DNA of 64,000 nucleotides, taken from assembly GCA_913060655.1 (NCBI GenBank), contig CAJXTG010000004.1, forward strand, positions 1-64,000, written 5' to 3'. Under the pieces are notes generated by a model that was not told the origin of the DNA, did not search any database, and saw nothing but the letters and a program-made list of their open reading frames with translations. This document shows, piece by piece, positions 20,737 through 22,960 of the stretch; position 1 is the first letter of the stretch, and the number at the start of each line of letters is the position of its first letter. Position numbers and translations under genes: made by a program. This DNA comes from an uncultured Nitriliruptoraceae bacterium. Lineage in GTDB: Bacteria > Actinomycetota > Nitriliruptoria > Nitriliruptorales > Nitriliruptoraceae.

Positions 20737-21810
20737 TCAGGCGCCCAGCCCCCAGCCGGGGGAGCGGCCCGCCCGGTCGGTGGCCACACCGTCGGACTCG
20801 ACGGTGCGCCCCACGGCCGCGGTGAAGCGGGTGAGCGTGTCGCGCAGCGCCGGCATGTCCTCGCGCACCAGCGCCTGCGGCCCGTCGACGAGCGCATGCT
20901 CGGGGTCGGGGTGGACGTCGACGATGACCCCGTCGGCACCGACCGCGATCGCCGAGCGGATCAGCGGCAGCACGAGGTCGCGCCGGCCGCCCGAGTGCGA
21001 CGGGTCGATGATGACGGGCAGGTGGGTGAGCGACTGCACGACGGGGACGGCGGACACGTCCAGCGTGTTGCGCGTCATCGGCTCGAACGTCCGCACCCCG
21101 CGTTCGCACAGCACGATGTCGAGGTTGCCGGTGTGCGCGATGTACTCGGCGGCCATCACCCACTCCTCGATCGTCGCGGTCATGCCACGCTTGAGCAGCA
21201 CCGGCTTGCCGGCGAGGCCGACCTCCTTGAGCAGCTGGAAGTTCTGCATGTTGCGGGTCCCGACCTGCAGCATGTCCGCCCGTCGCGCCACCGTCTCCAC
21301 GTCGGCGGGGGTGACGACCTCGGTGACGAACGGCAGGTCGAGGTCACGGGAGACCTCCTGGAGGATCTCGAGCCCCGACTCGCCCAGCCCCTGGAACGCG
21401 TAGGGCGACGTGCGCGGCTTGTACGCGCCGCCCCGCAGGATGCTCGCCCCCGCCTCCTTCGCCATCTCGCACGCGCGCCGGGTCTGCTCCGGCGTCTCGA
21501 CCGCACACGGTCCGGCCAGCAGCGTCACCGTGTCGCGACCGACGGCCCGGCCGGCGACCTCCACCGTCGACGGCCGCGGCTGCGCGTCGTTGCTGACCAG
21601 CTTGAACGCCCGGCTGACGCGGATGACGTCCTCGACGTTGGGGAACGCGTGCAGGGGCAGCTCGGCGAACTGCGTCAGGTCCCCCACGAGCCCGATGATG
21701 GTCTGGTGGCGCCCGCGGGACACGAAGCACTCCCCGCCGACGTTGGTGACGGCGTCGACGACACGGTCGATGTCGCCGTCGCTCGCCGCGGTCCGCATGA
21801 CGACGACCAT
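20737..21810 (-). CDS. aroF: 3-deoxy-7-phosphoheptulonate (DAHP) synthase, type I-beta
   Basis: First enzyme of the shikimate pathway: condenses PEP and erythrose-4-phosphate. The 357-residue protein has an N-terminal ferredoxin-like domain (~1-75, MVVVMRTAAS onwards), the part that binds Tyr/Phe for feedback in Thermotoga-type enzymes. The TIM barrel has LAGPCAVET (metal ligand C102), RGGAYKPRTSPYAFQG (PEP/E4P site) and DPSHSGGRRD. ATG 21810 is chosen: AGAGAGGA lies upstream, and homologues start MVVVM. A GTG seven codons earlier is the alternative. Upstream are a leader peptide and hairpins (21853-21975), so both allosteric and transcriptional feedback are likely. Confidence 0.96.
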   Translation of the reverse strand: MVVVMRTAASDGDIDRVVDAVTNVGGECFVSRGRHQTIIGLVGDLTQFAELPLHAFPNVEDVIRVSRAFKLVSNDAQPRPSTVEVAGRAVGRDTVTLLAGPCAVETPEQTRRACEMAKEAGASILRGGAYKPRTSPYAFQGLGESGLEILQEVSRDLDLPFVTEVVTPADVETVARRADMLQVGTRNMQNFQLLKEVGLAGKPVLLKRGMTATIEEWVMAAEYIAHTGNLDIVLCERGVRTFEPMTRNTLDVSAVPVVQSLTHLPVIIDPSHSGGRRDLVLPLIRSAIAVGADGVIVDVHPDPEHALVDGPQALVREDMPALRDTLTRFTAAVGRTVESDGVATDRAGRSPGWGLGA

Positions 21811-21852
21811 GGATGCGTCCTCTCTCGTCACGTCACTGCTCCCGACGTCGAA

Positions 21853-21877
21853 GGCCCCGGGGTGCGTCCCCGGGGCC
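21853..21877 (-). terminator. Terminator-like hairpin (3:4) of the aroF attenuator
   Basis: Perfect 10-bp GC stem, GGCCCCGGGG / CCCCGGGGCC, with a 5-nt loop. It lies 43 nt before the aroF ATG and after the leader peptide stop. It is followed by TTCGACG rather than a long U run, as is common for GC-rich actinobacterial terminators. Its upstream arm can instead pair with 21918-21930. Confidence 0.65.
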
Positions 21878-21930
21878 TCGGCTGCTGCGGTGCGCGATCA
21901 GCGCGCTCGACCGGCACGACCCCGGGGACG
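21865..21930 (-). promoter_or_regulatory. Antiterminator pairing (2:3) of the aroF attenuator
   Basis: RNA segment from 21930-21918 (CGUCCCCGGGGUC) can pair over 13 bp, one of them G-U, with segment 21877-21865 (GGCCCCGGGGACG). This uses the upstream arm of the terminator and so excludes it. The core CCCCGGGG is self-complementary, so folding energies should be computed before this is taken as proven. Confidence 0.6.
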
Positions 21931-21975
21931 GCGGAAGCCGTCCCCGAACCAGAAGAAGCCGTAGTGGTCACGCAT
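21898..21975 (-). CDS. Aromatic leader peptide of aroF (25 aa)
   Basis: Short ORF upstream of the DAHP synthase gene, too short for ordinary gene callers. The product begins MRDHYGFFWFGDGFRR and ends RPRGRAGRAR. Residues 5-14 contain Tyr5, Phe7, Phe8, Trp9, Phe10 and Phe14: all three aromatic amino acids, the end products of the pathway the gene initiates. No SD precedes the ATG; a -10 hexamer TATGGT ends 7 nt upstream, so it is probably the first codon of a leaderless transcript. A stem-loop (21924-21945) begins just after the aromatic codons. A ribosome stalled there for lack of charged tRNA would free segment 2 to form the antiterminator. This is inference from layout, with no experimental support here. 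Confidence 0.75.
   Translation of the reverse strand: MRDHYGFFWFGDGFRRPRGRAGRAR
21924..21945 (-). promoter_or_regulatory. Pause hairpin (1:2) of the aroF attenuator
   Basis: Perfect 9-bp stem GGGGACGGC / GCCGTCCCC with a 4-nt loop, lying within the leader ORF directly after the Phe-Phe-Trp-Phe codons. A ribosome stalled on those codons would cover its first arm. Confidence 0.65.
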
Positions 21976-21982
21976 GGGGAGG

Positions 21983-21988
21983 ACCATA
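21983..21988 (-). promoter_or_regulatory. Candidate -10 TATGGT for a leaderless aroF leader transcript
   Basis: Minus-strand TATGGT followed by seven bases and the leader peptide ATG, the spacing expected when transcription starts at the A of ATG. A -35 is not evident. Confidence 0.55.
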
Positions 21989-22042
21989 GCAGGGCGGGCG
22001 GGGGAGCGGTCGGCCGACCGCGGTCCGCCGACCCCGCACGGT

Positions 22043-22048
22043 TACGCT
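22043..22048 (+). promoter_or_regulatory. Candidate -10 element TACGCT
   Basis: Plus-strand hexamer 54 nt before ATG 22103; divergent from the aroF leader promoter. Confidence 0.45.
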
Positions 22049-22102
22049 CCCCGCTGGCCGCCCGCACCGTCCGCGGACGGTGCGTCGCCCGGAGGGCTCC
22101 CC

Positions 22103-22960
22103 ATGGCTGCGGAGGACGTCGCACGGCGGGGCACCGTCGTGCCGCTGCGGCCCACCGCCGACGGGCCCCGCCGGGCCGCCGAGGCGCGCCGGTGCGCCGG
22201 CTGCGGGCGCGACAACGACGTCCGCCGTGAGCTGTGCGCCGTCTGCGGCGCCGACCTCGACACGGGCCTGCCCCTCGAGACCGGCACGGCCCGCCCGGCG
22301 GCGCGCCGGGTCGCCGCCAACCGCGAACGGCTGGTCCTCCTCGGGGTCGGTGGCGTCGTCGTCGTGGCGGCGACCGTCGCCCTGCTCGCCGTGCTCGGCA
22401 TCGGACCGTTCGCGCCGTCGCAGCGGCTGGACGCGGCGCTGCTGCTGCGCGCCGCCTACCCGCAGGACGCCGCCGCGCTGACCGTCGCCACCGTCGCGAC
22501 GACGACGACGGCGAGCGCACCCGACCGCGACCTCGGCCCGCTCAACCTCATCGACGGGAACGGCGAGACCGCCTGGGTCGGGCTGCCGGCGGCCGGCGAC
22601 GACGCCGGTGAGGTCATCCAGCTCGTGCTCGAGGAACCCGCGTGGGTGGCGCGCATCCAGTTCCGCAACGGCGACCACCGCTCGTCCGAGGCGTACGAGC
22701 GCAGCGGCCGGCTGCAGCGCGGGCTGCTCCGGTTCGACGGCGGCCGCGACCACCGCATCGACCTGCTCGACATCGGCCGGCAGGCGCAGATCGCCGAGCT
22801 CGCCGAGCCGGAGCTGACCACCCGCGTCACCGTCCGGGTCGACCGCATCTTCCCCGGCACCGCCTCCCAGGGCGTCGCCCTGTCGGAGGTGTCGCTGATC
22901 GGCTGGCCGGCCGACGCCGCGGACGCGGCGCTCGCCCGCCAGCGGGCGCAGTGGCCGTGA
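22103..22960 (+). CDS. Zinc-ribbon, single-TM protein with C-terminal galactose-binding-like domain
   Basis: 285-residue membrane protein. A cytosolic zinc ribbon (C31, C34, C45, C48) is followed by one hydrophobic helix (~77-100) and an exterior domain (~130-285). The exterior domain has NLIDGNGETAWVG, GEVIQLVLEEPAWVARIQFRNG (read in parts) and a closing SQGVALSEVSLIG strand. That pattern matches discoidin/F5-8C-like modules described as NADase-type glycan-binding domains. It may bind cell-surface glycans, with the ribbon contacting a cytosolic partner. ATG 22103 follows GGAGGG by six bases. First of three coupled genes of unknown role. Confidence 0.72.
   Translation: MAAEDVARRGTVVPLRPTADGPRRAAEARRCAGCGRDNDVRRELCAVCGADLDTGLPLETGTARPAARRVAANRERLVLLGVGGVVVVAATVALLAVLGIGPFAPSQRLDAALLLRAAYPQDAAALTVATVATTTTASAPDRDLGPLNLIDGNGETAWVGLPAAGDDAGEVIQLVLEEPAWVARIQFRNGDHRSSEAYERSGRLQRGLLRFDGGRDHRIDLLDIGRQAQIAELAEPELTTRVTVRVDRIFPGTASQGVALSEVSLIGWPADAADAALARQRAQWP

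Follow-up and report, generated by a model that had tools for sequence, protein, structure and literature searches.

A predicted attenuator with an aromatic leader peptide before the type I-beta DAHP synthase gene of a Nitriliruptoraceae bacterium, and its counterparts in Actinomycetota

The gene aroF of an uncultured Nitriliruptoraceae bacterium, encoding the only DAHP synthase detected in its genome, is very probably controlled by a ribosome-mediated transcription attenuator of the classical trp/phe type. The parts of this device—a short leader ORF, aromatic codons conserved in relatives, the architecture of the leader start, and mutually exclusive helices exhibiting covariation in relatives—are found upstream of aroF in the window, i.e. 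the whole stretch of 64,000 nucleotides analysed here, and their positions are collected in Table 1.

Table 1 Positions of the leader, the RNA helices and aroF in the window
Feature	Position	Strand	Basis
Leader peptide ORF MRDHYGFFWFGDGFRRPRGRAGRAR, 25 aa + TGA (ATG 21975 to TGA 21898)	21898..21975	-	sequence; kept in relatives
Sensor codons Y5 (G6) F7 F8 W9 F10	21946..21963	-	sequence
Extended -10 element TGC-TATGGT; last base 7 nt 5' of leader ATG	21983..21991	-	consensus only
Hairpin 1:2, GGGGACGGC-ttcc-GCCGTCCCC (RNA: GGGGACGGC-uucc-GCCGUCCCC), putative pause/anti-antiterminator	21924..21945	-	sequence
Antiterminator strand 2, CGUCCCCGGGGUC	21918..21930	-	13-bp complementarity with 21865-21877
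Antiterminator strand 3, GGCCCCGGGGACG; overlaps terminator 5' arm	21865..21877	-	pairing with strand 2
Terminator-like hairpin 3:4, AGGCCCCGGGG-acgca-CCCCGGGGCCT (3' arm also given as CCCCGGGGCCU)	21852..21878	-	sequence; covaries in relatives
aroF Shine-Dalgarno GGGAG, outside hairpin 3:4	21839..21843	-	sequence
aroF, type I-beta DAHP synthase with ferredoxin-like regulatory domain	20737..21831	-	PF00793 258 bits, PF18152 64 bits, TIGR01361 above cut-off

Concerning the structural gene, the sequence-only reading of the window had taken it for a type I-beta DAHP synthase, and the profile matches listed in Table 1 bear this out. Its start, placed at ATG 21810 in that reading, has been moved: aroF most likely begins at GTG 21831, since an MTREDTT-like N-terminus before MVVVMR—as a whole, M(T)REDTTMVVVMR—is conserved in relatives. 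The host genome (1.67-Mb, 96.6% complete), the nearest named relatives of which are Nitriliruptorales, yielded neither a second PF00793 protein nor a type II DAHP synthase, so that all three aromatic amino acids probably depend on this enzyme alone. The element is unique in this genome as well, scoring 94 bits against 23 for the next match. The divergent neighbour (window 21974-22960, plus strand) carries a C-terminal F5/8-type C domain (PF25302), and with its start codon near 22100 the two promoters would have to share about 120 bp.

The 25-codon ORF with aromatic residues clustered at positions 5-14 is confirmed on the minus strand. It holds the stretch MRDHYGFFWFGDGF..., at least six F/W/Y in a run of 10 residues being reached nowhere else in any frame of the 64-kb window (all six considered), and an additional Phe codon, F14 (21934-21936), located inside the loop of hairpin 1:2. 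The small ORF with its aromatic codons, the loss of which in relatives had been named as ground for abandoning the idea, proved to be kept throughout the order and in many Actinomycetes. Among genomes of the order with a sufficiently long upstream region, 21 of 28 have an aromatic leader in front of the orthologous aroF; among more distant loci with a region of sufficient length, the figure for the same gene is 57 of 73. Examples are MGTGYRFFWFGDGF and MPHATYYFWFQGRFF, as well as MQRNFWRFYGYRP from Nocardiopsis, MRTAFLFWYGDGP from Nonomuraea and YFFWFDQPGR from Actinomadura. All three aromatic amino acids are present in 15/21 Nitriliruptorales leaders and 47/57 of the distant ones. When at least four aromatics per 10 residues and a leaderless -10 box were required, leaders were found in 59 of 99 real sequences, none of 99 on the reverse strand and none of 1980 dinucleotide shuffles, the null sets being subjected to the same TANNNT rule as the leader picking.

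The leader is dispensable in the sense that some relatives keep aroF without it: in one clade within the family (L006, L007, L010, L011, L014, L016) both leader and terminator have been lost, and L013 also lacks the leader. It should be mentioned that in L013 the place of the leader, some 25-230 nt before the aroF ATG, is taken by tandem units of ~40 bp (GTGCTCAAGTAGCCCGGAGGGCGGTAGCACAGGAGTACC). Loci of I-beta DAHP synthases with no aromatic leader comprise L043, L047, L054, L055, L060, L062, L070, L071, L076, L095, L098, L099, L104, L108 and L110; some of them may be paralogues of secondary metabolism, because the family is close to NCBIfam BagF/FevY. The leaders also differ from the genes they precede in codon usage: those from Actinomycetes (L036-L109) use UUU for 69 of 110 Phe codons and UAU for 54 of 78 Tyr codons, against 0/302 and 5/270, respectively, in the aroF bodies of the same loci. 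This bias could reflect slower decoding at the stalling sites or the avoidance of RNA structure. The Phe and Tyr codons of the window leader all end in C.

With regard to the leader start, the extended -10 element in the window implies that transcription would begin with the A of the start codon, i.e. that the mRNA is leaderless. A second in-frame ATG at 21987 is unlikely to serve as the start since it overlaps the -10 box. A sigma-70 consensus scan of the window gave no match. In the relatives, the last base of TANNNT is placed 6-8 nt upstream of the start codon of the leader in 20/21 Nitriliruptorales and 55/57 more distant cases, figures that describe leaders picked by requiring such a box 4-9 nt upstream; the extended form, TG-N-TANNNT, occurs in 20 of the 21 Nitriliruptorales. 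No TTGA-type -35 element was seen at 15-19 nt in either set. A Shine-Dalgarno-like match precedes one of the 21 Nitriliruptorales leaders and none of the 57 distant ones, the corresponding numbers for the structural gene being 21/21 and 46/57. The position of the -10 box and the lack of a Shine-Dalgarno sequence together point to a leaderless mini-gene.

All three helices proposed for the window are present, namely the 9-bp hairpin right after the aromatic codons, the terminator-like hairpin (10-11 bp) and the 13-bp alternative helix, which includes one G-U pair and overlaps both hairpins. The antiterminator duplex can extend far past 13 bp via the 3' half of the leader, and hairpin 3:4 is strong (-27 kcal/mol). 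Folding of the leader as a whole, which had been suggested as a check, is not decisive: the gain over shuffles is modest (z -2.1), as expected for a GC-rich leader.

Comparison of the loci is more informative. By statistics that, like the permutation and shuffle figures in this article, ignore kinship among the loci, the antiterminator of Actinomycetes (n=47) exhibits two-sided changes in 10 of 15 pairs and a covariation of 0.248 versus 0.121 in shuffles (0/500), and it is far better than slid versions; for the terminator of the same group the values are 0.313 and 0.162 (0/500). The clearest swap leads from GGACCCG/CGGGUCC in Streptosporangiales to CGGCCCG/CGGGCCG elsewhere, the terminator changing in step. 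Within Nitriliruptorales the terminator covaries, too, and no covariation was found for the antiterminator, because its core, CCCCGGGG, is almost invariant. Compensatory changes, which the sequence-only reading proposed to look for in all three stems, are thus seen in part: the Actinomycetes antiterminator and the terminators of both groups exhibit them, the Nitriliruptorales antiterminator does not, and the comparative support for hairpin 1:2 is weak to marginal in Nitriliruptorales and better in Actinomycetes. In both groups, pairing weakens when a leader is given the terminator arm of another species in place of its own (z -4.0 and -9.5; 0/5000 permutations). The mutual exclusion of antiterminator and terminator is therefore backed by covariation in Actinomycetes and by the swap test in both groups.

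These data bear on the reading that everything described arises by chance in GC-rich DNA, the hairpin being a plain intergenic terminator or a protection against read-through. GC-rich sequence does fold readily, as the above z of the whole leader illustrates, and the Nitriliruptorales antiterminator core is palindromic; the comparative data nevertheless contradict this reading, which we regard as highly improbable, through leader conservation far above that of shuffles, the fixed spacing between promoter and start, the covariation, the codon bias and a leader Trp content that tracks the downstream enzyme (see below). Moreover, with a divergently oriented neighbour on the upstream side, the strand carries no preceding gene that would need a terminator. 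Just as improbable is a ligand-binding riboswitch or a T-box in place of a leader-peptide attenuator. A conserved structured RNA before a biosynthetic gene would suit it, yet what is conserved is a translated-looking aromatic ORF and complementary strands that vary in sequence, with no conserved unpaired core seen. The Rfam covariance models, including Trp_leader and Phe_leader, gave nothing above noise in the window—one spurious snoRNA match at E up to 10—and no match at gathering scores in 14 related loci.

The tail of hairpin 3:4 in the window, UCGACGUCGGG, is a poor U-tract, in the window and its genus the hairpin being followed by UCGACGUCGG and not by a U-run; a simple terminator consensus scan of the window found no match. 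As the hairpin, moreover, ends just ~20 nt before GTG 21831, a translational mechanism may be envisaged, in which stalling alters the access to the aroF ribosome-binding site or couples the translation of leader and aroF, with no termination involved. We consider it unlikely, because the Shine-Dalgarno sequence lies outside the hairpin, the distance from the hairpin to the conserved ATG ranges between 13 and 107 nt in relatives—too variable for occlusion of a ribosome-binding site—and the tails in Actinomycetes are richer in U than that of the window. Transcription termination, the preferred reading, would in the window itself be suggested mainly by the relatives and by the strong conservation of the hairpin.

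For modelling the switch, the RNA downstream of the ribosome footprint was folded codon by codon, at equilibrium and then as nascent RNA in which strand 4 has yet to be synthesized. The equilibrium partition function favours the terminator at almost every ribosome position, so any switching would have to be co-transcriptional; equilibrium folding was accordingly dropped as a proof of the switch and nascent-RNA folding was used instead. In the nascent window RNA, the sequestration of the terminator 5' arm amounts to 0.99 for a ribosome at F8-D12, to 0.66 at Tyr5 and to 0.33-0.57 for positions between F14 and the leader stop; a similar picture is obtained for L002 and L004, both close relatives, in which the contrast at Tyr5 is smaller. 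A ribosome stalled at F8-D12 would mask strand 1 and spare strand 2, Tyr5 being poorly placed for this. Given the difference in arm sequestration, Phe8, Trp9 and Phe10 come out of the model as the best-placed sensors in the window, Tyr5 not being among them, and Phe and Trp as likelier signals than Tyr in this genus.

The predicted course of events is as follows. RNA polymerase would start at or beside the leader ATG, and a 70S ribosome would initiate on the leaderless RNA, as the promoter suggests. With aromatic aminoacyl-tRNAs plentiful, the ribosome would reach the leader stop codon and mask strand 2, whereupon hairpin 3:4 could form before aroF and transcription would end. If charged tRNA-Phe or tRNA-Trp were scarce—tRNA-Tyr being presumably less effective here—the ribosome would stall at F8-W9-F10 and cover strand 1; strand 2 would then pair with strand 3 ahead of the completion of strand 4, the terminator would be pre-empted and aroF transcribed. 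We infer stalling, termination and the response to each amino acid; the original proposal that stalling favours the antiterminator and switches aroF on gains support from the conservation, the covariation in relatives and the nascent folding.

The further claim that one leader senses all three aromatic amino acids fares better for the family at large, where leaders with Tyr, Phe and Trp recur, than for this species, in which Phe8, Trp9 and Phe10 are favoured over Tyr5. That the attenuator responds here to Phe and Trp alone, or even to Phe alone, is only slightly short of an even chance in our estimation: a ribosome stalled at codon 5 leaves strand 1 free, as the sequestration values indicate, and the aroR leader of Corynebacterium glutamicum contains Tyr yet responds to Phe only, Tyr availability being without effect (PMC11802643). 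On the other hand, Tyr has been retained in 16/21 Nitriliruptorales and 56/57 Actinomycetes leaders, where it often adjoins the hairpin.

Further evidence that the codons act as signals may come from a different enzyme. A covariance model built from the Actinomycetes leaders was searched over 397 genomes of the phylum, the R1/R2 matches below about 36 bits being excluded as mostly generic CCCCGGG terminators. Its best matches, MLTQTTFLFTYGNRPTGCHGRAA for example, are leaders in large genomes taken to be Streptomyces-like from their size and their type II DAHP synthase; of the proteins encoded behind them, the three representatives checked were all chorismate mutases (PF01817). The type II DAHP synthases of these genomes were rejected as leader-controlled candidates, as no leader was found and the genes themselves appear directly leaderless. 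Chorismate mutase feeds only the Phe/Tyr branch. Trp is present in 68 of 78 DAHP synthase leaders versus 1 of 18 chorismate mutase leaders, the p = 4e-11 overstating the independent evidence because within clades the leaders share descent. Both kinds are carried by G229 and G377, two genomes from another family: VTRSYRWFRQPA in front of a DAHP synthase of the TIGR00034 type (L196 and L197, upstream of the PF00793 match), where the hairpin differs in sequence and the terminator is rich in U, and VFDQRFFYYGTG or VSDRRSYFYYGTG, without Trp, before chorismate mutase. Such a pattern is difficult to account for if the codons are not themselves read out as signals. On balance, we favour with some reserve the wider view that Actinomycetota harbour widespread, uncatalogued leaderless aromatic attenuators whose codons match the place of the enzyme in the pathway—Phe, Tyr and Trp for DAHP synthases of the I-beta and I-alpha types, Phe and Tyr for chorismate mutase—each of them a putative OR-type sensor of any end product that its enzyme feeds.

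The leaders at L121-L137 and L139, for which MLTQTTFLFTYGNRPTGCHGRAA is an example, are leaderless Phe/Tyr peptides with terminator hairpins before small genes, apparently undescribed in Streptomyces-like genomes. At L129, the 3' half of the leader is frameshifted with respect to its relatives and the RNA sequence is still conserved, which suggests that just the sensor codons matter as protein.

Similar switches appear to be widespread in Actinomycetota and mostly undescribed in the literature searched. In a survey of 2005, no RNA regulatory element was found before the Phe or Tyr genes of Actinobacteria (PMC1262725), and the RNA-seq table for S. lividans contains no Phe/Tyr leader (PMC8079986). 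For I-beta DAHP synthases or chorismate mutases, no leader description was found in the open literature searched, most subscription journals lying outside it. The idea of the sequence-only reading, in which a leader for all three aromatics was set apart from the classic single-amino-acid ones, has a precedent in aroR-aroF of C. glutamicum. The class of mechanism is classical; what is new here is the leader composition tracking the pathway branch. The entry step of aromatic biosynthesis would thereby gain control at the RNA level in a group where surveys listed none for Phe and Tyr, the match between leader codons and branch would serve as a natural experiment on the signals perceived by an attenuator, making the integration of three amino acids testable, and aromatic leaders would suggest themselves as targets when Actinomycetes are engineered to make aromatic products, a purpose for which the C. 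glutamicum aroR has been replaced (PMC7356990).

As far as known systems are concerned, the window shares with pheL-pheA and trpL-trpEDCBA of E. coli stalling, in our case predicted, at Phe or Trp codons and the alternative 1:2, 2:3 and 3:4 helices. The E. coli leaders pheL-pheA and trpL each sense one amino acid, are initiated from a Shine-Dalgarno sequence, end in a U-tract terminator and control branch enzymes, the DAHP synthase genes of E. coli being under repressors. Several end products are sensed by one leader in ilvGMEDA and thrABC of E. coli, which differ in their branched-chain or Thr/Ile codons and are unrelated in sequence. Leaderless attenuators are represented by trpL, leuL and ilvL of S. 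lividans (PMC8079986) and by the polycysteine leaderless ORFs of mycobacteria (cited in PMC13236596). With these the window has in common the mini-ORF, predicted to be leaderless, and a U-tract that is often weak or absent, and it differs from them in the amino acids concerned. The closest counterpart is aroR-aroF of C. glutamicum, the attenuator of which was reportedly described by Neshat et al. in 2014 (cited in PMC11802643) and detected in PMC4046766, and the aroF of which is presumably of the I-alpha type. It is known as an aromatic leader attenuator responsive to Phe (PMC11802643, PMC4046766). Both are actinobacterial DAHP synthases preceded by a short leader, with Phe-Tyr-Phe in C. glutamicum, where ribosome-mediated attenuation is held responsible; aroR is reported to respond to Phe and not to Tyr, with no mention of Trp, whereas the leader in the window precedes an I-beta enzyme and contains Tyr, Phe and Trp codons.
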